From the NCBI GenBank assembly GCA_905147135.1, contig LR990050.1, positions 20,334,001 to 20,398,000 of the forward strand: a DNA stretch of 64,000 bases. Reading direction: 5' to 3'. Below the pieces are notes generated by a model. The model searched no databases, was not told the origin of the DNA, and was given only the letters and a program-made list of their open reading frames with translations. Positions 36,501 to 60,890 of the stretch are shown in pieces. The stretch comes from Blastobasis lacticolella (Eukaryota; Arthropoda; Insecta; Lepidoptera; Blastobasidae). A program made the position numbers and the translations under genes. Within the stretch, counting starts at the first letter, position 1; each line of letters starts with the position of its first letter.

Positions 36501-39500
36501 ATGCGAGAGCCAATGTCTTACGGAAGTCTGCGCGAAGTGGAGAAGTAAGAGTAGAAAGCACAAAATCAAAATACTGTCGATCTACGTCTTGGCAACGTGG
36601 TCTGTTGGGGATTGGTCGGTGAAGTTTAGGTTGTGGTTAAACATGATTATATGACATTGTTGGTACTACACGTGCGTAGTAGTACGTGTGCTGTGTTAGT
36701 GATCATGTGGTGATGATTTTGTGTCTGTAAAGGTGCGTACGAATTAGAGCGGCTCAGCCCCAGGGCATGCTCGCCGCGCGCGGCGTGATGTTCACCGCGC
36801 GCGTCGAGGCTGCTCAGTTGCGCATTTGTTTGTGCGTTGAGGCAACGTGCTCGCGGCGAGCCACAAATGCGCCGCACAAACAAAATGGCGTCGGACGCGA
36901 CTGATGCTACTTTTATAATAAAATTGATCGGATTGTTAAAATAATTTTAGTTTTTTCGATCCCATAATACTTTTTTCTGCTCATATACCTAATAATAAAA
37001 TACATTTGTCCTTGATCCGCACCATGTTGTTTAGTATATAAGTTTTCCAAATTATTCATTTATTTATTTTATTTATTTACTTTTTTTATTTTTATTATTT
37101 TATTTATTTATTTTACTTATTTAATCTATTTATTTTATTTATTAGAAAGACCAACACTTTAATTGAACTTTCGTCATAGGAAGAGAGGTAGGGCATAGCG
37201 GGGTATCCCGTTCGAATTGGAGCCGCCTGACTGGGGAAGTACCTCCAACTTACAGAATACCGCAGCTAAACAATACTCTTTTAAATAGGATTGTGTTTCT
37301 GCCGGTGAGTAAGGTTTCCAGAGCTCCAAGGGGTGGGAATTTGGGGAACCGTGGCTTCGGCAATGGAGGGATATTTGCCTTTTTGCTGCCAGAGTAACGT
37401 GTTATAGAGGTGGGCAACGCATTGGCGATAGTCTCGGTGTTGCTTATATCTATAGGCAGTGGTGACCGCTTTCCATCAGGGGGCCCGCTTGCCTGTTTGC
37501 CTATCGTATAACATAAAAAAAAACACTGAAGTTTTAAACCCAAAAGAAAATATTAAATTTGTCAAGTGTCAATAAACAATACGCGCGCATTCGTAGTTTT
37601 ATTTCGAGGCTCCGATACACGTCCAAACTCGCGAGGCACGCACGCCGAGGCACCTTTGAGCATGGACAGAAAACCGACAATCGGCGGCTCGCGGCGCACA
37701 CGCTCCGCCGCTCGGTGCGCCGCGAGCTGCGCGTGAGCCACGTACGAATTTGAGCAAATGGGCGAGCCGTGCGTGCCTCAACCTGAGGCTGCCTCTAATT
37801 CGTACGCACCTTTATATGTTGTGTTGTGCATTTGAGCTGTATTGCGTGTCGTATTATTATTAGTTCACTGCTGGATTTGAGCCTCTTTCACATTAATGGG
37901 GGGTTTCACTATACTCTCTGCATTACCTATCTCTTTCACACCGGTACAGGACAAGTATTAAAAGGCGAGAGCACGCGTGGTTTCGAGCGGTTTCGAAAGT
38001 AGGGCCCCAGGCGGAGAATACACTGTGTGGGCAGAGAGAGCAGTGGATATTTTAGTGACATAGGATCGTTCAAAAGGTATATTAGAGTTCGCTTCAAAGG
38101 CGGGCAACGCATTGGTTACTCCCCTGGTGTGTTGATGTCCATACACGGCGGTGACTACTTTCCATCAGGTGCTTTCCATCGCTTGCCACTTGCCGCTTGC
38201 TTGCCTGCCGTATAACATAAAAAAGACTGCAGCCCATTTTCTGGTCCACGGAGCTCCAAGGTGATCCTGGCGGTAACTCATTCGCCGCGTAAAGTACCCG
38301 CCGTGTCACGACATCTCAACAAACATGCGAGGCCAACGAGAGGCGACGCCGGCGCCCCGCACCGGCCAAATGCATAATGAGGAAGTTTCCTAATATCGAT
38401 ATTGCCATATTTAATGACATAGTGTTAAAATATAGATCAAAACTAACAAGCCCATGAAAAAAATTTTGAAATTCGTCTATAAATGACTGAGTTATACAAT
38501 ATTTAAGTTTACATATTTTTTCGTGAAATTATTGCTGCCGCGATCTAGCTGTGACGTCACCATGCCGGCATCCCGCCCGCCACTATGGGGCTTCCCAAAC
38601 ACTGAAATTCTTAATGACTGTATCTTCGGAACCGTAATAGCTAGACACTTGAACTACTAGACACAAAATGTGTAGCCTCACCACGAATTCACGCCCCTAA
38701 TAAAATTATTCTTGCAATCGCAACTTTAAAGTTTTATAACTTTTTTGTTTCTTGAGATATTTTTAACATTGAAAAAAATGTTTTGTTTCAAAATTCTTGA
38801 CTAAAATTTTTATATTCAATTGAAAAAATAATTTTGGAAACTTCCTCATTCAAAAGATCCTATATGCCGCGGTAGTTACCCGCCGTGTCTCACCGAATAT
38901 ATCTATCCTCCTATCCTATTATCATATAACCTCTCCTTGGCATTTGCCAAGGAGAGGCGATGCCGCCACCGGTCGACGGAGAACTTGGCCGTGGTGTTGG
39001 CGTTGACGCGGGGGTGCCACAACCCGGGCGCGCACCACACCGGTCAATTGCTTGTCTAGTATAACCCTTTGATGTGATCTGAGAGTAAAACTAATAAAAA
39101 GTCCTATATGCCGCGGGAGTTACCCGCCGTGTCTCACCGAACATGGAGGCCAAGGAGAGGCGATGCCGCCGCCGGTCGACGGAGAACTTAGCAGTTGTGT
39201 TAGCGTTGACCCGGGGGTGCCAGAGGCCGGGCGCGCGCACGACCCCGCGGACGGCGCCGGCCGCGCCGCGCTGCCGCACCTCCCGCTCCAGGAGCCCCAC
39301 GGAGCCCCACTCGGCCAGCGTGCTGGGGGGTGACAATATTGTGGACATCGTTACTAGACGGATCGATATACAGTTAGGACTAGAGCACCGGTGGTCTAAT
39401 GGTTAAGGGGTTCAAAGCTCAGGATCGCCATGTATGAATGACTGTTTTCTGAATTATATACTAATGATTTTACAGTGAGGAAAAACATTGTGATAAAACC

Positions 39501-42500
39501 CGACTATTCACGCGAATGAGTGCGTAAACATGATCCAAACTAGTCAGGTTCCCCTGTTAACAGAGTCCCGGAAGTCAAATGGCTGGTGCTCCCCTGTAGT
39601 TACCTGATCTACAAATCATGGAACATGGTCAGGGCGGACTCCGGACCCTCGTGCGCGAGAGAACAATCGGGACATTAACGCCGATGATAACAGCAGAGTC
39701 GAGGAATCGGCACCACAATCTTAAATTAAACCCTCTTAAGTCCAATCACACCGGTATTCCCCCAGGAGTACGATCTCGATTCCTTCAAAACCTAAATGAA
39801 TAGGCTATTTCTAGTCAGACAAACTCCATATTCGGTCGCATCGTCGCTTCCCATAAGATTTAATGTAAGTTAAATGTAACTTACTATCTAGTAAGTAGTA
39901 AAAAACCCTGTAACCAAGCCTCGCACTCACCGGAACCCGTCGGTGGCGAGCTGCCCCTCCCCCCAGAAGGAGAAGTCCGGCGCGTGCGTGGCGCCGATGA
40001 GGTCGGAGAAGTGCGTCAGCCACAGCGCCTGCGTCGGGAAGTCCTTCGGGTGCGTCGCCGCGGACCACAGGCCCTCGAACACCAACTAGGCAGGGAGGGG
40101 TGGTGAGACTCGAGGCCAGCAGGGGGATGTTATGGACTGTTCATGTTGTCAAGGACGTAATAAACTACCGTTGTATTTAAATTGGTGAAATCTTGAATCT
40201 ACTTGATATTTGTGTCTGGTGTTGCCATTTATAAAGCACATTCTATTCTGTAGAAAATACTAAAGATACGCTTACAAACGCACGTGTAATATTGCATCTT
40301 GTCCCTTATTCTTCTGGTGATTAAAGAGTAAGCAACAGCTGTTCTGTATGTTATGTTTTTATTCAATGCACAAAGTGTAACAGTATATAGAAGTCTTGAT
40401 AACGCCATACTTCTGACTTTCATTCCTCTAACACTATATAAATATTTAAAGTAGGTACTAATGTACTAGGCGTTTCCAACTAAATGTGTTTTTTGTTATG
40501 TTCATGATGTAGGTATTTTACTGATGGCAGGTTCAATATTTATTTATTTAACACTTTATACACAAAATAGTACAAAGGTGGACTTAAAGGTGGATTTCTA
40601 TTCTTGGTTCATGAAACCTTAGAGTATGAATCATAAACGTTACGACGGTAACCATCGGTCTAAGTTATTCAACATGTTGTTTTTATCGCAACTCTGCTAA
40701 ACGAGAGCCCATGTTTTACCATTTAGCGACACACAACAGGACACACCACATAACAAGTAAGTAGGTATAATTGTAGGTATTCTGCGATCTGATCCGGCCG
40801 ACACCTTTCCACCTTTGGAGCGCAAGAAGCGGACGTACGTTCCACGGTTCCACCCTCATGTCGGGGACATACTAGCTTCGGCAATCCGAAGCACAACCGA
40901 TCTTGCTAATGCGTATGGCTAAGGAGTAGAACGCTTTGGCTGCCTGTGTGTTTCTTGAATACTATAATCTAGACTCCTTCAAGACACAAGAAAGAAGCAT
41001 GCCCCATCCTCGGCCGCATCGTCATAATGCGGTGACATAGTGGGCAAATGCTTGCCAAGTATTATGTAATAACTTAACCGATAGAAAAAGTCGCGATAAC
41101 CCCCCATCAAGTTAACCTAACCTATATTACCAAACCGATTTTAATGAAACAAAGCCGGTCCCATTAAACTGGCTTTTAAATAGAGAAAATCCGTCGATCC
41201 GTTCTGGAGCTACGGTGCCACAGACAGATACACACGTCAAACTTATAACACTACTCTTTTTTCGTCGGGAGATTAAAAAAGCCTACAGTCGGTGGTCTCA
41301 CCGAGTACTTGGCGTCGTCGCAGGCGCAGCAGTCCTGCCGCCGCGAGTTGTCCTCGCACACGCGCCGCGTCAGCTGCCCGTCCTCCGCGAACCAGGACTC
41401 TGGACTCTCCAGAACCATCGCCCTGAATACGAGAAATTGTTTTCGAATTTCAAAACAATCTTGTTCCATCCACAACCGCATCGTCGCTTACCATCAGGAG
41501 GTGCGGTGGCAGTCAAATGCCTGCCTAGTTTTTTTATTTACGCAAGTGACCAACGAGCAGACCGCCCATCTGATTATTATTTATTTATTTCACAGTTAAA
41601 CAGCAATCACATTTGATTATAATCAAATACAAATAAAAGTGGTACTGCCAATTACAAAACTGGCATTAATTATTATTTATTTATTTTATTTTACTGTATT
41701 CAGAACACCAACAGCAAGTTACAAGTAATACTTACAAACATTTATAACAGCGAGGCCTTTAACAGGTGCTCGCAAAGCAGTATAACTTAATAACTGTCAC
41801 AGTGTCTCCCGACTCCTTTCCAACTTACTTGAGCAGCACGCATCCCGAGCCGGCCGGCGGGGCTTTCCACATGACCTGGATCTCGGTCTTGGGCAGGTCA
41901 TCGGCCTCCACCACCGCGTTGGGGCAGAGTGGGTCGAAGCGGGAGAGCGTGTCCGCGAACAGCTGGAACTCCCCCGCGCCGCCCCCCGCGCCGCCCCCCG
42001 CGGCCGCCCGCTGCGGCGCCGCCACCAGCTGGAACCGCTGGAACTGCTGCACCACGGAGTGCGTGCGGGACCCCACCAGCGTCACTGGGGGACGGGGGTT
42101 GCGGCGTCATTTGTTGTCAATCGATAATGATAATTATATTTAATACATTTCTTGTAATAGGTACTTAATGTATTTCTTATGGGCAATACACCATTATAAA
42201 CTGAGTTGCATTTGTAAGTTGGCGGCTTTAGTTGTCTATAAAACACATTTTTAAGGGTCTAGTAAACTGATCTAATCTGAATCATGCAATACGAAATTGC
42301 AGTTCTGTTGCAGTTGATGCAACTGCGCAGTCACTTTGCATGAGTAGCAGGATTGCATCCAATTGTCACGTATTATTGGAAGGTTGTGCAAAAATATTTA
42401 GTCCAAGATTACCTATTTCTAGAAGATATCGTTTATAACTAAAATAGAGCAGTTTCGGTTCTCATAACAACACGACGCATGGAAGGGTCGGTCGGGGAAG

Positions 42501-44089
42501 GGGGATTGAGACCTCTCGGTCAACGATATCGTGTTATCAGGTACCTACCCAGCAATGTTTCTAAATATTTAGATGACGCTCTGTATGAAAACTATCGTGA
42601 AAGACACGCGTTGACAGCTTAACGGCATTAAAAATACTAAGAATATCAAAATTCACTAATAATTTTTCTGTTTAGGTACTGATATATCATCTACAAACAC
42701 TATATTTGTTTGTTGATCCATGTACCTACGACAATGTTGTTAAAACAAAATGAAGTCAAGTATTTTAAATATAAAACAAGCACAAAATCTTATCATTTCC
42801 AGTTAAATTGGAGCATGTAATTTGCACCGCGTTATCTGCGACGTTGTTTTCAAATGCCACACAGACACAATTGTTTTTAAATTGTGCTATACGAAACGAT
42901 ATCCTACATAATAAAATATTGAAACATAATTTTATTACCACATGTATTTACATTTAAGACGTTCACTAAGAACGTTAAGGATACATCACTATAGTATATG
43001 AATTCACAATGTGTCACTTCGTCTGTTATACTATTTACCAACGCCTACAACATCGCCAGGATCAGGGGGTGTCAGAGCAAGTTAACAAGGGAATGTTACA
43101 ACCTCGACCTCACCAAATTGAATAAAACTTGGCAGATATATAGAGTAGACCATTCTTAACACAACGTATTTTGGAAACTGGAAGGTGCCGACCTAGGTCG
43201 AGAGTTGGCATAAGATGAATATTGTTGTGTTCAGAATAGTCTATACATCCAGAAATTTAATTCATTTTGATGAGCTCGGGTTCGTAACGTTTTCTGTAAG
43301 ATCAGTTAAGTTGATAGGTGAAGGGCGCTAGGAATGATGCACGCATGTGTAATGAACGTTAATCATCGACCCTGGGCCTGATGTCAAGAGGCCGATATCA
43401 GTCGAGTATGAGCGTTAATGTGAACAATCGGCATCGCGATAATGTTGAAACGCGTATAGTTTGGCAAGAAAGTTGTGAATCATTAGAGAGCAGTAGTTAG
43501 CAGAAGTACGCAGTTTGACAGAAATTAATTGTTGCAAGGGCAGTAGTTCCTTTTCACGACTCTACTGCCAAACTGTACAGTTGAACTAAAAGATAGGCAT
43601 ATCACTATTTCCTTTTTTCTTGCTCTCTTGAGAAAGAAGGGACGCACTTTTTGGTGCTACGGTGCTACACGTAGGGTAGATTCCAGAGAGACAGGAACAT
43701 TAGCTAGCATACAGTCTGTTATTAACCCCAAGTACCTAGTAAAGATAGAACACAAAGAACAAGAATATGATTAGCGACCCATCATAGCAGGTACAGTGCC
43801 ACACCTCACCCGTTCAGTAGACTGCGGCAGCAGACGCAGTAAATGGCGTCCATAGTTCTGATTTTGTCTGAACAGATAAGTTGGTTGCACTGAACCTGTA
43901 GCTTGCAATCTGCGACTCACCTACGTATCTCTCGCCCGGCTTGTAGCGCTCCACATCCCCATTAATAAGGAGGCGGTAGAAGTTGTCTCCGGGGGACTTC
44001 GGGGAGGGCGAGCCCTCGCGGAGGCTGCCCCCGCACCCCGCGGCCGCCGCCCCCGCCGCCGCCAGCACGCACCACAGCGCCCAATGCAT
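6500..44089 (-). CDS. Spon1: F-spondin (spondin-1 / fat-spondin) gene, 15 coding exons
   Basis: The gene encodes a secreted extracellular-matrix protein of the F-spondin family, known for roles in cell adhesion and axon guidance. Joined exons: 43921-44089, 41829-42084, 41302-41422, 39931-40085, 39138-39322, 36182-36312, 35307-35526, 33483-33654, 32238-32443, 31389-31582, 30126-30195, 26512-26682, 12912-13004, 11513-11622, 6500-6574. They total 2328 nt, 775 residues plus stop, and every intron is GT..AG with matching phase. Approximate residues: signal peptide 1-18, reeler 19-150, spondin_N 178-345, TSP1 repeats at 414-469, 488-540 and 560-620, Kunitz 627-682, linker 684-714, TSP1 719-775. All four TSP1 repeats keep a W-x-x-W core (WSEW, WGPW, WSGW, WGGW). 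The ATG was chosen because it follows AAA and opens a hydrophobic leader; the upstream in-frame codons contain no ATG. Domain order fits insect fat-spondin. The splice model is inferred, not tested by transcripts. Confidence 0.95.
7130..7342 (+). repeat. Helitron-like short repeat ending in CTAGT
   Basis: Shares GCTTAGATCTTTTAAACT and TCGGGTCCACTAGT with 28030-28227. The terminal CTAG|T and absence of coding fit a Helitron end. Confidence 0.55.
8000..8052 (+). mobile_element. Retroposon 3' tail with poly-A
   Basis: AAAAGTGTAAATCTGTTGGC followed by AAATAAATTAAA and a run of about 20 A. The inverted sequence occurs at 931-975, so it is the end of a dispersed retroelement. Confidence 0.65.
8690..9540. 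other. Unexplained GC-richer block with open frames on both strands
   Basis: Frames of 142 residues (plus, 8715-9143) and 135 residues (minus, 9119-9526) are open but start at GTG or similar codons and match no family I know. CGCGTATCGACCA is repeated near 9225-9250, and a TATA-like CTATATAAACG lies at 9488-9498. It may be a transposon remnant. I do not call a gene. Confidence 0.3.
11513..11622 (-). CDS. Spon1: F-spondin exon 14: TSP1 repeat 4, first part
   Basis: Encodes PAASNPADCVVGPWGGWSRC and SVSCGSGYQQRDRELI, with the W-x-x-W and CSVSCG motifs. The acceptor is GTACAG (phase 1). The donor GTGAGT directly follows the Ile codon, phase 0. Confidence 0.95.
11623..12911 (-). other. F-spondin intron 13
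   Basis: AT-rich beyond a GC-rich patch at 11690-11820. No repeat end or exon is supported. Confidence 0.45.
12912..13004 (-). CDS. Spon1: F-spondin exon 13: Ala-rich linker
   Basis: Encodes GGAPAAAAAVSTNYPGLSVS and SIVPISNSVNG. It joins the Kunitz domain to the last TSP1 repeat. The acceptor is GCTTAG, the donor GTCAGT; both flanking introns are phase 1 and the length is a multiple of three. It was chosen because it is open, GC-rich, correctly phased on both sides and precedes the next repeat. It has no domain of its own, so it is less certain than its neighbours. Confidence 0.78.
15117..15410 (+). mobile_element. LINE 3' end fragment
   Basis: Ends GTGCCTCTCTAGGCAATAAA followed by A-rich sequence. 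The segment GATGTCCTGGACGACGATGG recurs at 44217-44240 with the same GTGCCTC..TAGGCAATA tail. The frame is broken and the assignment rests on the shared tail. Confidence 0.45.
16020..16220. promoter_or_regulatory. CpG-rich islet with CRE palindrome and octamer
   Basis: A GC-rich patch within an AT-rich intron with a perfect TGACGTCA (within GGTGACGTCACGCG near 16111) and an ATGCAAAT octamer near 16066. It could be an enhancer or alternative promoter. This is inference from motifs only. Confidence 0.25.
16646..17115 (+). repeat. 470-bp repeat, copy 1
   Basis: Direct repeat of 21578-22066 in the same orientation, 4.9 kb away. Sharp ends (ATGTCGTCG... / ...GATCCGTCA) against unrelated flanks suggest a mobile unit or recent segmental duplication. 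Near its end CATGAGTCCRTACTATTGACC occurs twice in tandem. Confidence 0.9.
17760..18142 (+). repeat. Degenerate lead-in to the 15-bp satellite
   Basis: Loose, non-uniform repeats such as GGCCGCCACGCAACCAGGCC, GATGCCACACAGG and AAATGCCACACAG precede the perfect array and look like its older units. Confidence 0.6.
18143..18322 (+). repeat. 15-bp satellite, 12 units
   Basis: The unit is GCCACACAGGCGGGA, repeated in register 12 times. Variants are AAGCGGGA (third), CAGACGGGA (ninth) and GCAACACA (last). Since 15 is a multiple of 3, several frames stay open on both strands, but these are not genes. Degenerate units (ATGCCACACAGGCGA type) extend back to about 17760. Confidence 0.95.
19985..20180 (+). 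mobile_element. RTE-like LINE fragment (reverse-transcriptase C-terminus)
   Basis: Reads ISNLERLMVTGKVEGKRPRG, RSPKRWVDQISERFIET, a motif typical of the end of RTE/BovB-type ORFs (VEGKR-x-RG-x-x-P-x-RW-x-DQI). It is truncated on both sides. Confidence 0.75.
21578..22066 (+). repeat. 489-bp repeat, copy 2
   Basis: Almost identical to 16646-17115, starting ATGTCGTCGCGTGAAGG and ending ACCGTGATCCGTCA. It differs mainly by 19 extra bp (TCGAGACTCTGTCAGCACG) after GTCGTGCCG. It has a GC-rich core (TCCTCGGCGGCGGTCGCGCC). No long frame, inverted ends or tail. Confidence 0.9.
24794..25799. mobile_element. 1-kb non-autonomous DNA transposon with 9-bp target duplication
   Basis: Flanked by a direct repeat TTGAATGGA (24785-24793 and 25800-25808). 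The ends carry inverted GCGCGGATCCAG / CTAGATCCGCGC followed inward by G-runs and C-runs. The interior repeats GAGCGAAGCGAGCTCGAAAT with drift about ten times. No transposase frame. A 9-bp duplication suggests a Mutator- or hAT-like mover, but the family is not established. Confidence 0.75.
26385..26497 (-). repeat. Dispersed repeat (GTAACAGTCCACTGCAGGAC family)
   Basis: Contains CAATCTCCAACCCGCGCCAA, GGTGGAGATTATGG and CCTGCAGTGGACTGTTACGG. The same words occur inverted at 45375-45485. It ends only 15 bp from the Kunitz exon. Non-coding. Confidence 0.65.
26512..26682 (-). CDS. Spon1: F-spondin exon 12: Kunitz/BPTI domain
   Basis: Encodes ICMEEPEVGPCRGLYQRWAF, AAPKGMCVPFSYGGCRGNRN and NFLTQQECMDTCSVVI. 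All six Kunitz Cys are present, and the residue after the second Cys (the P1 position) is Arg, suggesting a trypsin-like protease target. The exon is flanked by two phase-1 introns, so it could be skipped without a frameshift. The acceptor is CCTTAG, the donor GTGAGT. Confidence 0.96.
28030..28227 (+). repeat. Helitron-like short repeat ending in CTAGT
   Basis: Shares AAAGTCGCT, GCTTAGATCTTTTAAACT, GATTCAAGAG and GGCGGGTCCACTAGT with 7130-7342. A CTAG|T terminus and lack of coding sequence fit a Helitron-derived end. The family assignment is inferred. Confidence 0.6.
28738..28885 (-). repeat. Helitron-like short repeat, inverted copy
   Basis: On the minus strand it ends in GCTAGT and contains ATAAAACAAAGTCCC, matching the family at 28030-28227 and 7130-7342. 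Confidence 0.5.
29698..29940 (-). mobile_element. tRNA-headed SINE (second family)
   Basis: On the minus strand it has GAGTGGTTCAGTGGTCA (A-box-like) and GGTCCCGGGTTCGATTCC (B-box) followed by GCCGGGCAGAAATTAAAAT. It ends in GATGGCGCTGTGTGAATT and an AT tail. A shorter plus-strand copy lies at 47900-48010. Confidence 0.75.
30126..30195 (-). CDS. Spon1: F-spondin exon 11: TSP1 repeat 3, end
   Basis: A 70-nt exon encoding VELMQQRPCADRNDCTVDMP and TAK. It supplies the last two Cys of TSP1 repeat 3. The acceptor is GAATCAG, the donor GTGAGT, phases 0 and 1. Confidence 0.9.
30196..31388 (-). other. F-spondin intron 10
   Basis: Unique-looking sequence. A run of GCCTAC/CCTAAA-type words at 30700-30870 is mildly repetitive. 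No supported exon, repeat end or regulatory site. Confidence 0.45.
31389..31582 (-). CDS. Spon1: F-spondin exon 10: TSP1 repeat 3, first part
   Basis: Encodes ESRKCMEPACPEGEADAPES (the end of the preceding repeat plus a linker), then CPATPWSGWSPCSASCGRGV and KFRTRLLLVPPEQQEPCSRK. The acceptor is CCCCCAG, the donor GTACGT, phases 1 and 0. The repeat is completed by exon 11. Confidence 0.95.
31583..32237 (-). other. F-spondin intron 9
   Basis: Mostly occupied by the plus-oriented SINE at 31800-32115. The rest shows nothing assignable. Confidence 0.55.
31800..32115 (+). mobile_element. tRNA-derived SINE, body
   Basis: Shares its body with the SINEs at 34297 and 39375: CTTTTCTGAATTATGGACAT, CGGTATGGAAAAACATCATA, GAGACATTAACGCC. 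The tRNA head is largely lost. An internal CCAAATCTTGGATCATG is tandemly repeated near 32024-32066. Confidence 0.65.
32238..32443 (-). CDS. Spon1: F-spondin exon 9: TSP1 repeat 2
   Basis: Encodes GGSAGPSEAEDPTLLRVD, then CATSEWGPWSECSVSCGVGA, ATRRRYFLDRMGRKKCPLVD. It has the W-x-x-W and CSVSCG signatures. The acceptor CCGCTCCAG has only a 16-nt pyrimidine-rich lead because a LINE poly-A tail lies just upstream. The donor is GTGAGT, phases 2 and 1. Confidence 0.95.
32460..32860 (-). mobile_element. CR1/Jockey-like LINE 3' end with reverse-transcriptase C-terminus
   Basis: The minus-strand frame (32529-32795) reads RRFERTFLARTRRMWNELPA, VFPLDYDMGSFKRYIRDL, FRGGQRI, typical of the end of ORF2 in non-LTR retrotransposons. 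A T20 run at 32460-32479 on the plus strand is its poly-A tail, so it has the same orientation as F-spondin. It is 5'-truncated. Confidence 0.8.
33266..33362 (-). mobile_element. Short LINE-derived retroposon tail
   Basis: A T-run on the plus strand, then ATGTCATACGGTAGGCAAAC, GCCACCTGATGGAAAGTGGT and ATTAGCAACACCGAGACC. These match the tails at 56936 and 3360-3438 in inverse orientation. It is heavily 5'-truncated. Confidence 0.65.
33483..33654 (-). CDS. Spon1: F-spondin exon 8: TSP1 repeat 1
   Basis: Encodes ECAVSPWSEWSPCSVSCGKG, LRMRSRQYRMPAKAQMF, QLVSKEMCVADVPEC. It has six Cys, the W-x-x-W motif and the CSVSCG core of a thrombospondin type-1 repeat. The acceptor is CCCCCAG, the donor GTGAGT, phases 1 and 2. 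Confidence 0.97.
33740..33919. mobile_element. Fold-back MITE, 74-bp arms around a 32-bp loop
   Basis: The left arm (33740-33813) starts TATACAGGCTGTTACATAAT. The right arm (33846-33919) is its near-perfect inverted complement, ending CCTGTATA. The whole 180 bp would form one long hairpin. The ends TTATACAGG/CCTGTATAA suggest insertion at a TA-rich target. Confidence 0.85.
34297..34640 (-). mobile_element. tRNA-derived SINE, near full length
   Basis: On the minus strand it opens with a tRNA-like head: GTCGGTAGCCGGGCGATTGA, then CCGGGTTCGAATCCCGC (a B-box). It continues through a body with CTCACGGTGAGG and ends in CGGGACATTAACGCC. The same body occurs at 39375-39700 and 31800-32115. The 3' end of the MITE at 34641 adjoins its head. 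Confidence 0.8.
34641..35141. mobile_element. MITE with AATGAGGAGTTTTCC ends and internal 124-bp tandem duplication
   Basis: The left end AATGAGGAGTTTTCC is matched by the inverted right end GGAAAACTGCTCATT (one mismatch). The interior matches the element at 50200-50617. Here a segment starting near 34761 (CTAATACTAAACTG) is repeated 124 bp later at 34885, which accounts for the greater length (501 against 418 bp). No coding frame. Confidence 0.8.
35307..35526 (-). CDS. Spon1: F-spondin exon 7: linker between spondin_N and first TSP1
   Basis: Encodes the ITPMFPEDPRSPFYDPG segment, a family-conserved linker (..HPQSPFYDP.. in relatives), then LARLHLTREAVVARPCDQ and an acidic tail (VTEEESSPNADK). 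The acceptor is TTCCAG, the donor GTATGT, phases 0 and 1. Confidence 0.94.
35527..36181 (-). other. F-spondin intron 6
   Basis: AT-rich, with no exon, repeat end or structured element that I can support. Confidence 0.5.
36182..36312 (-). CDS. Spon1: F-spondin exon 6: spondin_N C-terminal part
   Basis: Encodes GPSPDWVVGVNGLELC, RADCSWEPSLVVDLTPYDAG, TDNGVTYM. GPSPDW-x-VG and DLTPYDAGTDNG-x-TY are diagnostic spondin_N motifs. The acceptor is ACCCAG, the donor GTAGGC, phases 1 and 0. Confidence 0.97.
36728..37814. mobile_element. 1.1-kb element with 22-bp terminal inverted repeats, nested retroposon inside
   Basis: The left end begins TAAAGGTGCGTACGAATTAG and the right end is its inverted complement, with at least 22 matching bases. 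The interior holds GC-rich patches close to each end, an AT-rich TTTATT tract (37040-37145) and a separate plus-strand retroposon (37185-37523). No transposase frame is seen, so it is a non-autonomous DNA transposon of unassigned superfamily. Confidence 0.65.
37185..37523 (+). mobile_element. LINE-derived short retroposon, nested
   Basis: Nearly the same as the copy at 3098-3438: GAGGTAGGGCATAGCGGGGT at the 5' end, TGGGCAACGCATTGGCGATA, TTTCCATCAGG, and an ATAACATAAAAAAAAAC tail. It is non-coding, and the A-tail gives the orientation. Confidence 0.7.
38000..38226 (+). mobile_element. CR1/Jockey-like LINE 3' end fragment
   Basis: Resembles the LINE tail at 32460-32860: GGATCGTTCAAAAGGTATAT, AAAGGCGGGCAACGCATTGG, TTTCCATCAGGTG, then GCCGTATAACATAAAAAAG. 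The orientation is plus, opposite to the host gene. It is 5'-truncated with no intact frame. Confidence 0.6.
38276..38368 (-). pseudogene. Older decayed duplicate of F-spondin exon 5 (copy B)
   Basis: Weaker similarity to the same segment (TACCCGCCGTGT, then ACATGCGAGGCCAACGAGAG and CGACGCCGGC against the exon's ACATGGAGGCCAAGGAGAGG). It is separated from copy A by a 475-bp MITE. The divergence suggests an earlier duplication than copy A. Confidence 0.6.
38376..38850. mobile_element. MITE with AATGAGGAAGTTTCC terminal inverted repeats
   Basis: A perfect 15-bp inverted repeat (AATGAGGAAGTTTCC at 38376, its complement at 38836-38850) bounds 475 bp of AT-rich non-coding DNA. The ends resemble those of the elements at 34641 and 50200 (AATGAGGAGTTTTCC), but the interior differs. 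It sits exactly between the two decayed copies of exon 5. No target duplication could be defined. Confidence 0.7.
38858..39040 (-). pseudogene. Decayed duplicate of F-spondin exon 5 (copy A)
   Basis: The sequence matches the 3' half of exon 5 and about 36 bp of the following intron, including the TCTATATGCCGC-like flank and the TCTCAC donor complement. It cannot substitute for exon 5. A run of about 45 bp containing a 12-bp inverted repeat (CTCTCCTTGGCA/TGCCAAGGAGAG) interrupts it. A 2-bp deletion in the APGLWHP region shifts the frame, and the 5' half is missing. It is a non-functional partial tandem duplicate. Confidence 0.85.
39138..39322 (-). CDS. Spon1: F-spondin exon 5: spondin_N, APGLWHPRVNANTTAKF segment
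   Basis: Encodes TLAEWGSVGLLEREVRQRG, VVRAPGLWHPRVNANTTAKF, SVDRRRHRLSLASMFG. It matches the spondin_N region running up to the GPSPDW motif of exon 6. The acceptor is CCCCCAG, the donor GTGAGA, phases 2 and 1. Two degraded copies of this exon and its downstream flank lie in the following intron. Confidence 0.96.
39323..39930 (-). other. F-spondin intron 4
   Basis: Filled mainly by the plus-oriented SINE listed at 39375-39700. The remaining sequence on either side shows no exon or other structure. Confidence 0.55.
39375..39700 (+). mobile_element. tRNA-derived SINE, full-length copy
   Basis: A tRNA-like head (GGTGGTCTAATGGTTAAGGG, GGTTCAAAGCTC), a body with CTGTTTTCTGAATTATATAC and AGTGAGGAAAAACATTGTGA, and the end CGGGACATTAACGCCGATGA. 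Opposite orientation to F-spondin; same family as 34297-34640. Confidence 0.8.
39931..40085 (-). CDS. Spon1: F-spondin exon 4: spondin_N core
   Basis: Encodes LVFEGLWSAATHPKDFP, LTHFSDLIGATHAPDFSFW and GEGQLATDGFR. It carries the spondin_N hallmarks F-x-G-x-WS-x-x-THPKDFP and G-x-TH-x-x-DF-x-x-W. The acceptor is GCCTAG, the donor GTGAGT, phases 0 and 2. Confidence 0.97.
40086..41301 (-). other. F-spondin intron 3
   Basis: Mostly AT-rich unique DNA. Fragments of the common LINE tail (GCCGCATCGTCATAATGCGG) lie near 41010-41055, and TTTATTTATTTAAC at 40540 resembles a retroposon tail. No further exon candidates are seen. Confidence 0.45.
41302..41422 (-). CDS. Spon1: F-spondin exon 3: reeler to spondin_N junction
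   Basis: Encodes MVLESPESWFAEDGQLTRR, VCEDNSRRQDCCACDDAKYS. The DCCAC..AKY block is the conserved lead-in to the spondin_N domain. The acceptor is ATTCAG, the donor GTGAGA, phases 2 and 0. Confidence 0.95.
41423..41828 (-). other. F-spondin intron 2
   Basis: Contains a LINE-type 3' tail fragment around 41480-41570 (TTACCATCAGGAGGTGCGGT, repeated with variations near 41010 and 57265) and AT-rich TTTATT tracts around 41580-41700. No coding potential is seen. Confidence 0.5.
41829..42084 (-). CDS. Spon1: F-spondin exon 2: main part of reeler domain
   Basis: The exon continues the reeler domain: FQRFQLVAAP, then a Gly/Ala-rich insert (AAAGGGAGGGAGEF), then CPNAVVEADDLPKTEIQVMW and APPAGSGCVLLK, the family's typical strand pattern ending in W-x-APP-x-GSGC. 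It is bounded by CCCCCAG and GTAAGT, phases 1 and 2. The Gly/Ala insert is probably a lineage-specific loop. Confidence 0.95.
42085..43920 (-). other. F-spondin intron 1
   Basis: An AT-rich intron with no exon-like reading frame. Around 43840-43885 a short segment (ATGGCGTCCATAGTTCTG and TGAACAGATAAGTTG) recurs at 54960-55000 in an intron of the neighbouring gene, so it is a dispersed repeat. I see nothing else assignable. Confidence 0.6.
43921..44089 (-). CDS. Spon1: F-spondin exon 1: signal peptide and start of reeler domain
   Basis: The exon encodes MHWALWCVLAAAGAAAAG, a typical secretion signal, followed by a Cys and the start of the reeler domain (DNFYRLLINGD, YKPGERY). The donor is GTGAGT, phase 1. 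The spliced reading continues as VVTLVG in exon 2, as expected for a reeler domain. Confidence 0.93.
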
Positions 44090-44129
44090 TTTAACACTGC
44101 GCAGCTGACCGACTCGTCGATACACTTCA
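44090..44129 (-). other. 5' leader portion of F-spondin exon 1
   Basis: This is the forty bases between a TTCTAG acceptor and the ATG at 44089. They have no upstream ATG and end in AAA immediately before the start codon, a good insect start context. The stretch is read as 5' UTR in the same exon as the signal peptide. Confidence 0.55.
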
Positions 44130-44869
44130 CTAGAACATTCTGGAACGTGATAAAGGAGTTGCAGCGGCGGAAACGAGTGTTTGGATCTAGATCGAAAAAA
44201 ATGCTAGAACATACAGATGTCCTGGACGACGACGGTGGCCACTTTCAATCAGGTGGACCGTCCGTCCGTGTGCCTCAGTAGGCAATAGCAGGCTTAGCAC
44301 ATGAAGTTGAGTATTTTGATGGTTTTAAAAATAAGAGAGGGAGATAAACGTGATGTAATTTGTCTGCCTTTACCGTAATCTTTGACAAATTAATTGCTTA
44401 TGTTTGCTTCGGGAAATCCCTAATCCCTGGTATAGTCATACGATATTTATATCCCTTATCAAATTAGCTCAGCATCTCAATGGTTAAAACCTACAAAAAC
44501 AAAGACCGTTTTTAGTAAAGCACGGTAAAAAAAACTATAGTAACTGTACCTTCCCTATAACCTATAAAGTAACATATTATCTATGTATTTATGTGGGAAA
44601 GTTCTAAGGTACAATTTTTATGGATTTAACACTTCTATGAAAACCTTCTACCTCGAAAACTTTCTCACACATCCTCGACATGCCATCCTGACGAACTTCT
44701 GAAAGATTCGCTGAAGTTCTTGCTCTCTACAACCCCCTTTTTCCCAACCGGAGAAGACACAAACTACAAAGTTTCGCTCATGCATATTCCAGCCAATACG
44801 TGCGCCTACTACACGTGTAAAACAGAAATAGATGAAGAGGCAAGTTACAATTTCTGGAAACGTACTCAC
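44130..44869 (-). other. Probable 5'-UTR intron of F-spondin
   Basis: Lies between the candidate leader exon and the ATG exon. Contains a LINE tail (44210-44290, ACAGATGTCCTGGACGACGA ... CAGTAGGCAATAG). Otherwise AT-rich with no features. Confidence 0.4.
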
Positions 44870-52873: not shown

Positions 52874-52914
52874 TCAGAACGTCAGGATCGGCTCTTCGCG
52901 GTGATCCAGGATAT
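52874..52914 (-). CDS. KIAA0930-homologue terminal exon
   Basis: Completes DILDHREEPILTF and a TGA at 52876-52874. The acceptor is TGTTCCAG, phase 1. DIL..R..PIL matches the extreme C-terminus of the family, so this short exon is well supported. Confidence 0.9.
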
Positions 52915-55900
52915 CTGGAACAAGCGAGGCAATTAAATTGACAAAATGAACTTCCAGAATTCACCAGATGGCGCTACTGAGAAGTGAAGTCCGTTGTCAA
53001 AATTTTGACGTGGACAGAAATAACTGCTGTAAAATGACAAATCTAATCCAGCCAATAATCATCATTATCTTAGCGTCTATACGGCTTATGCTAGAGTCCG
53101 CTTTCTTACTTTTTTTGCTATACTTCGTTCGGCATCCTCAAGTAATAAACTCGAGCTTTTAACTGCGCGATATAAATATCATTCCTCCCAATCAATTCTA
53201 GCCACTGACAAGGAATTTTGAAATCAGACCTTACGTCTCAGTAGCGCCCTCTGGTGGATTTTGGAATCGCGAAATCTCTCATCGATATTTTAAAATCTCG
53301 AATATCTGTGGCCGATTTTCTCGGGCTACGGGCCTGCCGCTTGCCGTCCTTCCGGCGGTGGAAGGTCCTACCTTTGGCGATGCTCCACCAAGGCAGCGTG
53401 ACGTAGGTGAGGTAGGCGTTGAGCGGCGCGGAGGACTGCCGCTTGCCCTCCTTCCGGCGGTGGAAGGTCCTACCTTTGGCGATGCTCCACCAAGGCAGCG
53501 TGACGTAGGTGAGGTAGGCGTTGAGCGGCGCGGAGGACTGCCGCTTGCCCTCCTTCCGGCGGTGGAAGGTCCTACCTTTGGCGATGCTCCACCAAGGCAG
53601 CGTGACGTAGGTGAGGTAGGCGTTGAGCGGCGCGGAGGACTGCCGCTTGCCCTCCTTCCGGCGGTGGAAGGTCCTACCTTTGGCGATGCTCCACCAAGGC
53701 AGCGTGACGTAGGTGAGGTAGGCGTTGAGCGGCGCGGAGGACTGCCGCTTGCCCTCCTTCCGGCGGTGGAAGGTCCTACCTTTGGCGATGCTCCACCAAG
53801 GCAGCGTGACGTAGGTGAGGTAGGCGTTGAGCGGCGCGGAGGACTGCCGCTTGCCCTCCTTCCGGCGGTGGAAGGTCCTACCTTTGGCGATGCTCCACCA
53901 AGGCAGCGTGACGTAGGTGAGGTAGGCGTTGAGCGGCGCGGAGGACTGCCGCTTGCCCTCCTTCCGGCGGTGGAAGGTCCTACCTTTGGCGATGCTCCAC
54001 CAAGGCAGCGTGACGTAGGTGAGGTAGGCGTTGAGCGGCGCGGAGGACTGCCGCTTGCCCTCCTTCCGGCGGTGGAAGGTCCTACCTTTGGCGATGCTCC
54101 ACCAAGGCAGCGTGACGTAGGTGAGGTAGGCGTTGAGCGGCGCGGAGGACTGCCGCTTGCCCTCCTTCCGGCGGTGGAAGGTCCTACCTTTGGCGATGCT
54201 CCACCAAGGCAGCGTGACGTAGGTGAGGTAGGCGTTGAGCGGCGCGGAGGACTGCCGCTTGCCCTCCTTCCGGCGGTGGAAGGTCCTACCTTTGGCGATG
54301 CTCCACCAAGGCAGCGTGACGTAGGTGAGGTAGGCGTTGAGCGGCGCGGAGGACTGCCGCTTGCCCTCCTTCCGGCGGTGGAAGGTCCTACCTTTGGCGA
54401 TGCTCCACCAAGGCAGCGTGACGTAGGTGAGGTAGGCGTTGAGCGGCGCGGAGGACTGCCGCTTGCCCTCCTTCCGGCGGTGGAAGGTCCTACCTTTGGC
54501 GATGCTCCACCAAGGCAGCGTGACGTAGGTGAGGTAGGCGTTGAGCGGCGCGGAGGACTGCCGCTTGCCCTCCTTCCAGAGGTGGAAGGTCCTACCTTTG
54601 GCGATGCTCCACCAAGGCAGCGTGACGTAGGTGAGGTAGGCGTTGAGCGGCGCGGAGGACTGCCGCTTGCCCTCCTTCCAGAGGTGGAAGGTCTGCGTGA
54701 AGCCGCGCATCGCCCACAGCGGGTTGTACGCGCCGTCGTCCAGCTCTGCAACGCAACGGCGGGGCCGGGTCAGTGGGCAAGGGGGGCGGGTACTATCACA
54801 TTTATTCGCTGGATAACCAGCTATAGTCCAATAATTTATGCGTGTAAATGAAAGTATTGCGTACTGTGCGTCGCGTTTGGAGACACGCCACGAAGAGACA
54901 GTGCTACCGACTTCTCATTTTAGTAGACGGCGGTGCTAGTGAGGCTGGGGGAATGACATTCACTATATGGCGTCCATGGTACTGAACAGATAGGTTGTCT
55001 GTGGCAAACTGACATTTGGCGCTCGTTTGGAAATACACATATCGTAGTGACGCAATAACGTGCAATTTTGTCCACGTTTGGATACACATAGTTTTACCCT
55101 ATTACCAACGATAATTATCGATACCATTCCTTTTTTTATATACCACTAAGGTAGCAGAGAAACATACATATGTCCTGCCTGACGATGAGCAGTCTTCATC
55201 CAGGGGCATCACCCCCGTGATATGATCATATCGCATGCTCAACCCTACCAACACCGACGCCGATGCTGGCGACACCGGCGCAGTGCTACCTTACCGTGGT
55301 GGTCGCGGGGCAGGTCGCACCAGTAGTAGACGTCGGTGCCGTCGGGCGTGGTGCGGCGCGGCGGCGGCGGCGCGCGCCGGAACAGCAGCGACCCCGGCGC
55401 GCGGCCCCGCCAGCCGCGCGGCAGCGTGCAGTACGCCCGGGCGCCCGCCCACGGGCCCTCCGGCTCCGACGACCCCGCCGTCGCCCCCGCGTCGGGCGTC
55501 GTCGAGTACATCCGCTCGCTGGGGAGCTCCTCGGCGCCGCGGACGGTCTCGCCGTCGCCGTCGCCGTCGCGAGCGGACACGCTGGCGGCGTGCTGGAGCC
55601 CGTACTCGTCGAGCGCGGCGGCGTCGTGGCCGACCTCGCACTCGCCGGCGCCGGGCGAGTCGGCGGGGGCGGGGCGGGGTGCGGGGCGGGGCGCGGGGGC
55701 GGCGAGGGCCCTGGGCAGGGGCCTGAGCGGCGGCGGCGCGCGCACGGGCTGCGGGCTGCGGCGCGCGCGCGGCGCCAGCGTGCGCAGGCAAGCAGGCGAG
55801 TCCACGGGCGGCGGCCGCGGCCCGCACACGGCGCCCATGCAGGCCGCGCGCCCCGCCCGTCCCGCCCGCCCGCGCCCGGAGGAAGCCTGGCTCGCGCGAC

Positions 55901-58333
55901 GCCCTACGGGCAGACAGACGCCGTCACCATCGTGCCCGCGGGCCCTAGTCGAGGTGCCGCGCCTCGCGATGCCGGGGCGGCTGTCGATCGGATAGTTTCG
56001 ACTGGCGCTGGTAGGTCAGCACGGGACTGCTAAGCTGGCCGAACTTGGCCGACTTGTACCGATCGACAGACGCAGTAGAATCGCTCCGAGGCGATTCGCA
56101 TCTCGGCTAGGCCCGCTGCCCCGCCGCCGCCGCCTGACCCACCGAGTGGGTGGCGGCGGGACCGGTGCGGTTGGACTCCGGCCGCGGCTTGTATAGGCGT
56201 GCGAATTCAAACTGGCTTCCTCCGGGCGCACAAGCCGACTCACACGCACTCACGCACACGTAACGAGTATACGACACACCACCGAATGGGACGACAATGA
56301 TATGGCAAATTGATAAAAATAACGACCACAACCATGCAGTAACCAATTTCAAACCGATTTATTTCGAGATCACAGACCCTCGAATTAGTCAAACCAGTCG
56401 TACATAAAAAACTAATTCACCAGCTATTAGTATCGTAGAAATTTATAGCTGCCACAAGCATTAATGAGCCATCAACGTTTAGTGAAATCAAGCATGATAA
56501 GCGGACACAAATCGAAACTCGCTCCAGAAACACTTTCACAAACACCCAGAACCCAAATCACAAAAAAATACGTATAAAAAACGTCACACACAACAGATAA
56601 GCGAAAAGTGGTATAAAAATACTACTAGTACTGGTACACTCACCGTCCCTTACATCCCCCGCCTCCACCTCAGCGAGCGCTCCCCCCAGCGAGTCCAGCG
56701 AGTCGTTCTCGGAGCGGCTGCGCTCCCCCGCGCCCCCCGCACCCCCCGCGCCCGCCCCGCCCTCGCCCGACCCTCGCTCGCGGCAGCGCCACCCGCCGCG
56801 GGAGAACCACGCCACGTTGGACGAGGGGTCGCTCAGGCGGCGCTGGAAATCACCACGTTGGAAAATAAACTTAGTCCTTACATAGGTAGATACGTAGACA
56901 CTCCCGCCCGTCTCCTCACAGGACGCGTTGGAAACTTTTTTTTTTTATGTCATACGGTAGGCAAACAGGCAAGCGGGCCACCTGATGGAAAGTGGTCACC
57001 ACTACCTATAGACATTAGCAACACCAAGTGTATCGCCAATGCGTTGCCCACCTCTGTAGCACGTTGCTCTGGCAGCAAAACGGGCAAATGCCAATGCCCC
57101 TCCACTACGGTTCCCCAAATCCCCACCTCATGGAGCACTGGAGACCTTACTCACCGGCAGAAACATAATACTATTTAAAAGAGTATTGTTTAGCTGCGTT
57201 AGTATTGTAAACTATTCTATTAAACGTCGGTGCATAGATAAAATGCCACGGGTTACGAAGGAAATGGTGAGATGAAAGTCAAATGCCTGGCTAGTCTAAT
57301 AAAAAAATATACGTTTGCGAGTTCAATTCACCAGATGGCGCTCCTGAGACGTAAGGTCTGCTGTCGTAATACTGGCGCGCTATTGGACGTCTGTCAACAA
57401 CATCTGTAGCGCCGAACATCAGTAGCGCCATCTGATGGATTTTTGAATCGCAAACATCCTCATTACCGCGTCCCGGATATCTACTAAATAGCGATTTTGA
57501 GATCTAAGGAAATACACTCATCTCGTTGGGTTGCAAAGATATGTTGTGTGGTAATATGTTGTACGGATAGTGAATAGAATACGAATAACAAGATGTTCCA
57601 GTTGCAATCGGTAGCAAAAATAAAAAACAATAAATAGCAGTATCATCTATCGACGTCAAAACTTTCCATTGCCGTAATATTTCCACAGGAGTTGGCAACA
57701 TAAACGTTTCCAATACAAACAAATTAGCTGAAATGGCTAGTAAAGGACTGTTATGGGTCGTTGATGATGATAAGTAACTACATTATCGTTCCTTAACGAC
57801 CTGCTGAGTGACACAATGGTCACTGTGTCGATCGGCTACGCTGATGGTCTCGGTTTCATATTCTATTCACTATATTAGTGTGTAATGTATGTGTGCAGTT
57901 AGCCAAAATCAAATCTACCACTCCCAGGTTAGAGATTTGTTGAACGTCATAAGTTGCAATAACATTCTGGACTCCACCTTAGCGACATTTCCGTGTCACC
58001 GGAAGATTTGTCAAAACTGGCACACTCTCTTGACCAACCGTACCGACAGTGGACTCCCTTTGACCTTCCGGTACGCACCTGATGCTTATACACGAACATA
58101 TCCTCCGGGTCGTCTTCAAAGTCGGAATCCCAAAGGTCCGTGTTGGCGAGCCCGGGCTCCGACGCCGGCGTGTCCAGCCCCGAGCCGTGGGGCCTCGCCA
58201 CGCACATCTCGGCGTGGCCCTTCCCCGCGGGGCCCTTCATGCGCACGAACTCGTGCCGGGCCCCCCCGCGGGTCCCCCCGCCGAGGAGCCCGAACGACAT
58301 GCGCTGCGCCACCTTCGTTGATAACGATGATTG
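52874..58333 (-). CDS. KIAA0930 homologue (DUF2045 family), 3' portion, five exons
   Basis: The protein family is uncharacterised. Exons: 58079-58333, 56644-56842, 55295-55903, 54596-54745 (shortest form) and 52874-52914. Joined they give 1254 nt, 417 residues plus stop, phases 0, 1, 1, 1. Family signatures are KVAQRMSFG, HEFVRMKGPAGKGHAEM near the start and LNAYLTYVTLPWWSIAKDIL, DHREEPILTF at the C-terminus, which align with the corresponding parts of human KIAA0930. The middle is long, disordered-looking and rich in Gly, Ala, Pro and Arg. Exons for the N-terminal half were not found and probably lie beyond the right edge. The penultimate exon is embedded in a 13-unit tandem array, so longer forms (up to about 825 residues in this portion) are possible. 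Confidence 0.9.
52915..53371 (-). other. Last intron of the KIAA0930 homologue
   Basis: Runs from the most distal array donor to the terminal-exon acceptor (GTTCCAG) and is largely a MITE (52952-53270). If an earlier donor is used, the remaining array units become part of this intron. Confidence 0.7.
52952..53270. mobile_element. MITE filling the last intron of the KIAA0930 homologue
   Basis: The left end TTCCAGAATTCACCAGATGG is mirrored by the inverted right end (CCCTCTGGTGGATTTTGGAA) with few mismatches over about 31 bp. The shared core is CACCAGAKGGCGCTACTGAG. Interior non-coding. Confidence 0.75.
53334..54689 (-). repeat. 102-bp tandem array: exon 3' end plus splice donor, 13 units and a 30-bp partial
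   Basis: Each unit runs from TTCCAC through the coding segment KEGKRQSSAPLNAYLTYVTL, PWWSIAK and ends with eight intronic bases GTAGGACC. Unit 1 starts at 54689, unit 13 ends at 53364, and a diverging partial unit (HRRKDGKRQ) occupies 53334-53363. The first two units read HLWKEGK and the others HRRKEGK. 102 is a multiple of 3 and the unit is stop-free, so read-through gives GRTFHRRKEGK junctions. Units 3 to 13 look almost identical, pointing to recent expansion, homogenisation, or an assembly artefact. Confidence 0.97.
54596..54745 (-). CDS. KIAA0930-homologue penultimate exon (shortest form)
   Basis: Reads LDDGAYNPLWAMRGFTQTFH, LWKEGKRQSSAPLNAYLTYV and TLPWWSIAK. The acceptor is GTTGCAG (54746), the first donor AAAG|GTAGGA. 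It carries the conserved LTYVTLP motif. The same donor recurs every 102 bp down to 53372, so the exon could extend by 1 to 12 further units, all in frame. Confidence 0.9.
54746..55294 (-). other. KIAA0930-homologue intron
   Basis: Carries a short dispersed repeat (54955-55005, ATGGCGTCCATGGTACTG and GAACAGATAGGTTG) shared with 43840-43885. Otherwise nothing. Confidence 0.5.
55295..55903 (-). CDS. KIAA0930-homologue exon, 203-codon low-complexity cassette
   Basis: The frame that links correctly reads GAVCGPRPPPVDSPACLRTL, then Pro/Ala/Arg-rich sequence (PRPAPRPAPADSPG), an acidic ECEVGHDAAALDEYGLQ, MYSTTPDAGATAGSSEPEG and TDVYYWCDLPRDHH before donor GTAAGG. I placed the acceptor at CTGCCCGTAG because it leaves the required phase 1; other AG sites nearby give the wrong phase. 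Other frames over this GC-rich block are open by composition only. Phase 1 on both sides makes it a possible skippable cassette. Confidence 0.7.
55904..56643 (-). other. KIAA0930-homologue intron
   Basis: GC-rich at its 3' part, AT-rich toward 56300-56640. No repeat or exon assigned. Confidence 0.45.
56644..56842 (-). CDS. KIAA0930-homologue exon, Gly-rich and Ser/acidic
   Basis: Reads RRLSDPSSNVAWFSRGGWRC, a Gly/Ala run (GEGGAGAGGAGGAGE), then RSRSENDSLDSLGG and ALAEVEAGDVRDG. The acceptor is TTTCCAG (phase 0), the donor GTGAGT (phase 1). SENDSLDSL resembles the Ser/acidic SANDSEE region of vertebrate relatives (from memory, not aligned). Confidence 0.85.
56936..57205 (-). mobile_element. 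LINE-derived short retroposon
   Basis: A plus-strand T-run followed by ATGTCATACGGTAGGCAAAC, CACCTGATGGAAAGTGGTCA and GCCAATGCGTTGCCCACC. The inverted counterpart of 3098-3438, 5'-truncated. Confidence 0.7.
57322..57446. mobile_element. Short MITE with ACCAGATGGCGCT ends
   Basis: The left end TTCAATTCACCAGATGGCGC is mirrored by an inverted right end (GCGCCATCTGATGGATTTTT). Related to the element at 52952-53270. Confidence 0.65.
58079..58333 (-). CDS. KIAA0930-homologue exon with core DUF2045 motif
   Basis: 85 codons, phase 0 at both ends. Reads QSSLSTKVAQRMSFGLLGGG, HEFVRMKGPAGKGHAEMCVA, then an acidic LWDSDFEDDPEDMFVYKHQ. The acceptor is AATTCCAG, the donor GTGCGT. The FVRMKGP..GKGHAEM block is the best evidence for family membership. 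Confidence 0.93.
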
Positions 58334-59801: not shown

Positions 59802-60890
59802 TTAGGTTGGGGAAAAAGTCTTTTCGCATATAGTATGTATGAACTTGTAATAAAACCTCTGGCTATACTATTTGTACCTGGCTGGTTTTGGTATAATTTA
59901 AAAGTTTAAATTTTAAAGAAGATAATTCCAAATTCAAATTGTGAAAATGCGTGATTTTTATTTGTTTTTCTTACCGTCAAGATGAGTGAATCTAATGAAG
60001 AAATTAGAATGCAGTGTCTGTGAGAGTAGCAAAAATTTGGTTTAAGCGTTGACAATCCGGAAATTTTGATGTTACGTACGGATAAAATGGATGCTATTTT
60101 TGAAAAAGTGGAGCAAGATCGGCATATCAGTAGTTACGACGTAGCTGAAGAACTGGAAATTGACACAAAAATGGGCACACAAAAAAGCTCGATATTTGGG
60201 TACCTCATGAGCTCTCTGAAAGAAACCTAATGAACCGTGTACTCATTTGTGATTTTTTTATTACGACGTAATGAAACCGAACCATTTTTGAAGAAATTGA
60301 TAACTGGTGATGAAAAGTGGATCACGTACGACATGAACGTGCGAAAAAGGTCATGGTCAAAGGCCGGTCAGGCTTCACAGACTGTGGCGAAACCCGGGTT
60401 AACTCGCAACAAGGTGATGCTGTGTGTGTGGTGGGATTGGAAGGGCATTATTCATTATGAGCTGTTACCATCAGGCAGGACCATCGATTCAGAACTCTAC
60501 TGCGAACAACTGATAAGATTAAAGCAAGAAGTTGAGATTAAGCGGCCGGAATTAATCAACAGAAGGGTTGTGGTTTTTCATGATGATAACGCTAGACCTC
60601 ACACATCTTTAACCACTCAGCAAAAATTAAGAGAGTTTTGCTGGGAGGTGTTAATGCATCCGCCGTATAGTCCTGACCTTGCACCTTCACATTTCCACCT
60701 GTTTCGGTCTCTTCAGAATTCTTTAGGCAGTGTCAGGTTAACATCACGAGAGGACTGCCAAAACGTCTTGACGCAGTTTTTTGATCAGAAGCCAAAAAAA
60801 TTCTATAGCAATGGGATATGTCCCTACCTATAAGATGGCAAAAAGTTATCGAACAAAATGGTACCTACATACTTTAGTTAAATGTAAATC
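59802..60890 (+). mobile_element. Degenerate mariner element
   Basis: The left terminus TTAGGTTGGGGAAAAAGTCT is typical of mariner ends and follows a TA. It encloses a broken transposase (59982-60833). The right inverted repeat is not recognisable, so the right limit is approximate. Confidence 0.8.
59982..60833 (+). pseudogene. Mariner transposase pseudogene
   Basis: The ATG at 59982 reads MSESNEEIRMQCL, then a TGA at 60021. The N-terminal half continues with frameshifts and a deletion. The C-terminal half (60237-60833) is open: LITGDEKWITYD, WWDWKGIIHYELLPSG, VVVFHDDNARPHTS and MHPPYSPDLAPSHFHLF. The first two catalytic Asp are at 60309 and 60585. The third position, 34 residues later, is His (CAT at 60690) instead of Asp, so even an intact copy would lack the D,D34D triad. 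Confidence 0.92.

Follow-up and report, generated by a model that had tools for sequence, protein, structure and literature searches.

The window analysed here, a stretch of 64,000 nucleotides from Blastobasis lacticolella, holds part of a KIAA0930 (DUF2045) homologue on the minus strand. Spliced alignment with homologues gave nine coding exons for this gene, running from 92568 (in window numbering extended into the flank, as the window ends at 64000) to 52874, and the gene model with a single copy of the repeat described below is intact, with 455 aa and no stops. The Pfam profile PF09741 was found above the cut-off at one exon in the window, coding exon 6 (58079..58333, minus strand; Pfam and spliced alignment), which matches the end of the profile (positions 189-230) and places the gene in the KIAA0930/DUF2045 family. 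Coding exon 7 (56644..56842, minus strand) was placed by spliced alignment, and the exon that bears the array lies beyond the profile end. In the whole genome, PF09741 gave four exon matches above the cut-off, all within this homologue. Identity to the homologues P0008 and P0030 is 78.7% and 80.7% over 455 aa, and among the fetched proteins the top five full-length matches all come from Lepidoptera. A weak PF09741 match at C16:1969217-1969360 (E 0.05, below the cut-off) may be a diverged second copy or a chance hit.

The penultimate coding exon (54596..54745, minus strand, 150 nt) ends in ...WWSIAK, as conserved in homologues; it terminates in LTYVTLPWWSIAK, followed by the donor AAAG|GTAGGA. 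The last coding exon (52874..52914, minus strand, spliced alignment) consists of DILDHREEPILTF and the stop, behind the acceptor GTTCCAG|AT. Tandem Repeats Finder (TRF) reported a tandem array at 53334-54693, on the edge of the penultimate exon, with a period of 102, 13.3 copies, a 99% match and a score of 2685. Each full unit joins approximately the last 97 nt of the exon to GTAGG of the intron, 102 nt in all. On the minus strand, 13 occurrences of the motif GCCAAAGGTAGGA follow one another exactly 102 nt apart, and 13 donors on that strand read GCCAAAG|GTAGGA; by motif search, the last exonic bases of donors 1-13 are 54596, 54494, 54392, 54290, 54188, 54086, 53984, 53882, 53780, 53678, 53576, 53474 and 53372. 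AAAG|GTAGGA is thus present at the homologue-conserved junction in 13 of 13 units, all of them predicted donors. Units 2-13 and their donors occupy 53372..54595 (minus strand), which is intronic with donor 1 and would add 34 residues per unit with a later donor; beyond donor 13 follow a partial unit of 38 bases (53334..53371, minus strand) and then unique intron. Depending on the donor, the exon would measure from 150 nt (donor 1) to 1374 nt (donor 13), and the last intron 1681 nt with donor 1 (52915..54595, minus strand) or 457 nt with donor 13.

Unit 1 is the ordinary exon end, and unit 2 is the same except at the junction. Units 3-13 are mutually identical and two bases apart from units 1-2 (CTCTGG to CGCCGG, replacing Leu-Trp by Arg-Arg), and the partial unit carries this replacement plus one further change (Glu to Asp). 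Both changes that mark units 3-13 are nonsynonymous, although two events prove little, and the identity of these units left nothing to count in a selection test from between-unit substitutions. When searched against its own genome, the array region gave a single DNA match, C11:20387334-20388745. The feature is therefore present in the assembly with the anatomy first described for it: 13 units of 102 bp with the donor AAAG|GTAGGA, borne out by TRF and by the exact motif spacing, in the penultimate coding exon of a KIAA0930 (DUF2045) homologue, as homologues and spliced models agree.

The initial annotation also held that the unit length is a multiple of 3 and that no unit contains a stop, and it was right on both counts: the exon frame is open through all 13 units and in phase with the last exon. 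It had further given all donors the phase of a last-exon acceptor at 52915; the phase is right, but the last exon starts at 52914, and 52915 is the G of the acceptor AG. Spliced models built with 1, 2 and 13 units have no internal stop and range from 455 aa (1 unit) to 863 aa (13 units), and other unit numbers would also be open because they share the same open frame. As evidence of function, however, the open frame is weak, because a duplicated coding piece stays open by descent, a multiple of 3 is a 1-in-3 event, and two more frames, another on the minus strand and one on the plus strand, are open across the array.

We searched for homologues with the array-bearing frame, scoring 7997 candidates of about 275-877 aa, of which 239 passed and 120 were listed. 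All 120 matches listed (of 239) contain the LTYVTLP-type motif exactly once, and none contains an array junction. A second query, built to catch array junctions or later-donor splicing, yielded 63 candidates and 43 matches, among which neither an AKGRTFH junction nor an Arg-Arg copy before AKDILDH was found. Both protein searches covered database clusters, in which 90% clustering could hide a species' own fragments. Judging from these sequences, the array is derived, because the matches listed (120 of 239) are all single-copy, and a KIAA0930 exon-end array would so far appear to have been seen only in this genome. Two short proteins from metagenome sources, P0160 and P0162, carry, after LTYVTLPWY, a second copy that reads LTYVTEPWY or LTYVAEPWY, which may reflect a small duplication within this conserved segment.

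Among 37 protein tails compared, most of those that include the last exon have AK|DILDH or AK|DLLDH where donor 1 lies. Four proteins (P0003, P0007, P0013 and P0035) continue past the conserved donor, P0013 by nine residues before DILDH, and P0023 ends at the donor. P0003, P0007 and P0013 are lepidopteran protein models, and the conserved donor is not the sole annotated exon end. The residues W-K-E are present in 159 of 163 fetched proteins, the exceptions being two divergent and two short proteins, and W391 is invariant in 45 aligned proteins.

Long-unit arrays elsewhere in this genome were assessed in a background sample of 20 pieces of 10 kb, taken at position 5,000,001 of 20 contigs (200 kb) and fixed before inspection. 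TRF returned 66 rows for these pieces, five of them with a period of at least 50 and a match of at least 98%; their periods span 113-480. They comprise 113 bp x 10.0 (L014), 173 bp x 5.2 (L007), 480 bp x 3.8 (L024) and two AT-rich arrays of 175 bp x 3.0 (L013, GC 0.297) and 291 bp x 2.0 (L010, GC 0.375).

The first of these (L014:4391-5523, G000 C9 near 5.0 Mb) consists of ten near-identical 113-bp copies of an exon end plus donor in a lethal(2) giant larvae (lgl) homologue, with 10 donors of the form ATCAA|GTGAGTACG spaced 113 nt apart. Like the KIAA0930 array, it has a GC-rich unit of ~100 bp that joins exon end and donor in near-identical copies; unlike it, the unit of 113 bp is out of frame and a TGA stands directly after the first donor. 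As predicted from this frame, the nine extra donors would each truncate the protein. The identity of the gene was supported by a search of solved structures, in which four joined exons matched LLGL2 at E = 1.6e-33; with one exon alone LLGL1 ranked first, weakly (E 0.0038), with nothing at 0.001, and a Pfam search of the lgl exons yielded no lgl family. The second array (L007:7416-8316, G000 C2 near 5.0 Mb) has five copies of a 173-bp unit with 77% GC, which resembles a complete exon, flanked by acceptor and donor, plus a spacer under 40 nt. A diverged copy of the end of this unit lies ~0.5 kb downstream. Separately, the 480-bp repeats at L024:8181-10000, a multiple of 3 in length, seem by eye to be part of a repetitive coding region of silk type.

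In this sample, each of the two arrays with five or more copies lies against an exon edge, which was verified for one of them; two arrays are few, however, and this threshold was chosen after they were seen. Unit GC is 0.655 in L014, 0.775 in L007 and 0.657 in KIAA0930, and a GC of at least 0.62 is reached by 2.2% of 100-bp windows (4344/193968) with the three GC-rich arrays excluded. The simplest reading is that minisatellites here would arise in islands of high GC content, and in an AT-rich genome such islands are for the most part exons. A bolder proposal, that conserved genes of this genome (KIAA0930, lgl) repeatedly have GC-rich exon edges and their donors amplified to near-perfect minisatellites and that a position rule lets the spliceosome pass over the extra donors, is one we put forward tentatively and consider rather doubtful. 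Own-genome searches with PF00069 (137 matches from the best 125 of 524 candidates) and PF00005 (20 matches from the best 19 of 187 candidates) showed, by eye, no series of exons closer than 600 bases over the same part of the profile; this weak negative counts against arrays in exons being common. Six matches to the same kinase-domain segment, 14-19 kb apart on one strand at G000 C30:1665208-1748232, may belong to a kinase-like gene or exon repeated in tandem over a large stretch.

Given these observations, the most likely identity of the KIAA0930 array is that of a young minisatellite with surplus donors, situated mainly in the intron. It may have been seeded by a tandem duplication of approximately the last 97 nt of the exon and the first 5 nt of the intron, after which slippage or unequal exchange would have raised the number of copies to 13 in this recent GC-rich minisatellite. 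The ancestral donor at 54596 would still pair mostly with the acceptor at 52915, preferred because it keeps the exon at 150 nt (exon definition), and units 2-13 would be a 1.2-kb stretch of the intron in which the donor recurs in exact copies. If a later donor were used occasionally, this would add 34-residue segments in frame and therefore need not trigger nonsense-mediated decay. We think it probable, though by no means assured, that the first donor is mainly used and that units 2-13 are then mainly intronic. Use of donor 1 is favoured because the amplified copies replaced the conserved Leu-Trp by Arg-Arg and because the lgl array of the same genome stops at once past its first donor, an argument that assumes a functional, single-copy lgl gene.

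Several observations count against a preference for donor 1. Nothing local singles it out, as all 13 donors are equal in sequence and the 97 nt upstream of them hardly differ. Predicted accessibility from folding is low at all 13 donors and highest at 1 and 13. An intron-proximal preference would select donor 13; SF2/SRSF1 has been reported, to go by the title of the paper, to activate proximal sites (Krainer, 1990, cited in PMC8724738). The conserved donor is also passed in some lepidopteran models (P0003, P0007, P0013).

The initial annotation proposed a mature protein with 1 to 13 copies of the segment, depending on the donor, which would require that later donors be substantially used and would give a series of proteins whose maximum is set by allele length. 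The 13 donors are intact, in phase and free of intervening stops, which would permit every length between the one-unit and 13-unit models. Their strength is ordinary for the gene: the calculated pairing of the array donor with U1 is -9.2 kcal/mol, and the eight other donors of the gene range from -6.7 to -12.2. A human precedent exists in repeats at exon-intron boundaries, where 66% of the intron modifications also had a transcript keeping the repeat in the exon (PMC2812944). Against this, a unit length divisible by 3 arises in one case in three and other frames are open too; Arg-Arg replaces the conserved Leu-Trp in 11 of 13 units; no such protein was found in the 120 listed of 239 matches, from candidates whose size range (about 275-877 aa) admits 863 aa, or among the 43 matches of the short query; and the lgl array cannot function in this way. 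Such a protein series thus seems less likely than use of donor 1, because the amplified units lost a nearly invariant Trp, none of the homologues or fragments listed has the array junction, and the lgl array donors would truncate; substantial use of later donors strikes us as unlikely.

That the array, or its copy number, was created in assembly is less probable still. Eleven identical units invite the suspicion, and a systematic cause could be behind the finding of two more near-perfect arrays, also at GC-rich exon edges, among so few pieces sampled. The array is, however, 1.36 kb long with unique flanks and has an internal order of variants (units 1-2, units 3-13, partial unit), and it lies in a 20.66-Mb contig of a 45-contig assembly, which suggests long reads.

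Very improbable is a form of intronisation or step-wise splicing in which each AAAG|GTAGG serves as both acceptor and donor (the AG|GT model) and splicing takes out one unit at a time as a 102-nt intron. An AG|GT lies at either end of the unit, which is what the Rogers model requires, and fission yeast genes with arrays of 24-bp AGGT units are reported to have introns spanning several units (Zhu and Niu, 2013, as described in PMC4974935). AAAG nevertheless looks like a poor acceptor, with a pyrimidine fraction of 0.47 at -20 to -4 against 0.59-0.76 in eight inferred acceptors of the gene (which is no proof that it is not used as one), and another AG lies 11 nt upstream. Recursive or unit-by-unit splicing was set aside on account of this weak acceptor. 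Reading each unit as a separate exon, with the CAG in GGCAAGCGGCAG as acceptor, would by eye leave a 38-nt intron and shift the frame.

Minisatellites made of an exon end and its splice donor are already known, and the KIAA0930 array is a long, in-frame, 13-donor case in a conserved gene. Each repeat of the human CBS minisatellite has reportedly been described as a possible alternative splice site, and the survey of boundary repeats in human segmental duplications is reportedly the work of De Grassi and Ciccarelli. The CBS repeat, a 31-bp VNTR described as c.1444_1467+7(16_21) at exon 13-intron 13, has 24 exonic and 7 intronic bases (PMC2630376; PMC1395315). Its 16-21 copies, in these descriptions, each bring a donor region in a unit of exon end and intron start, as here; unlike the 102-nt unit, its 31 nt shift the frame. 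Its copy number varies among people, and an association of the repeat with reduced enzyme activity is given by a title cited in both sources (Lievers, 2001, in PMC2630376 and PMC1395315). The statement of the initial annotation that no splice-donor VNTR had been described in this gene is not contradicted in the literature searched, where no report of a KIAA0930 exon-end array was found, but CBS demonstrates that splice-donor VNTRs as such are known.

In human segmental duplications, variable internal tandem repeats at exon-intron boundaries are described as kept in or spliced out of the mRNA, with 27 intron modifications (PMC2812944). Like those, the KIAA0930 array is a minisatellite over an exon-intron boundary; unlike those, which on that account average 30-bp units x 4 and belong to recent paralogues, it has 102 bp x 13 and lies in a conserved gene that is the only match in its own genome above the Pfam cut-off. 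Intron gain by tandem duplication of AGGT or boundary segments, as outlined for potato RdRp and fission yeast (PMC4974935) and for Drosophila (PMC2891723), likewise multiplies splice signals through duplication over a splice boundary, whereas here there is no sign of a new intron and the AAAG site seems weak as an acceptor. Further off are the tandem repeated exons of schistosome mucins, where the repeats are described as whole exons with introns (PMC2576457).

Should these arrays indeed reflect amplification of exon edges, the two ladders, one in frame and the other out of frame, would amount to natural experiments on donor choice among at least 10 identical sites. Competition of identical 5' splice sites is usually studied in engineered constructs with two or three copies. 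Here, a natural gene offers 13 donors of the same sequence in nearly one upstream context, with exons of 150-1374 nt and introns of 1681-457 nt, and the donors used could tell whether the choice depends on the distance to the upstream acceptor or on that to the downstream one. The lgl array, being out of frame, could be set beside the in-frame KIAA0930 array as a matched control. Were later donors in use, the protein would contain a repeat whose length varied with that of the allele.

Structure prediction was of little help: AlphaFold models of the Nymphalis io homologue P0016 (from an alignment; mean pLDDT 33.6) and of the exon with five units (single sequence; pLDDT 56.4) were too poor for use. 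Pfam on the array protein gave three chance-looking matches, one barely above the cut-off (DUF2484, 26.6 vs 25 bits), and these were discarded. As DNA, the coding strand of the unit showed no excess of hairpin stability over 200 mononucleotide shuffles (-16.4 vs a mean of -16.3); the other strand, folded without shuffles, gave -19.5. Elsewhere in the window, open frames at 26378-44203 (minus strand) with Kunitz-like and thrombospondin-like segments perhaps belong, by eye, to a papilin-type gene. A 199-aa open frame at 60234-60833 (plus strand) resembles, again by eye, a mariner-type transposase.
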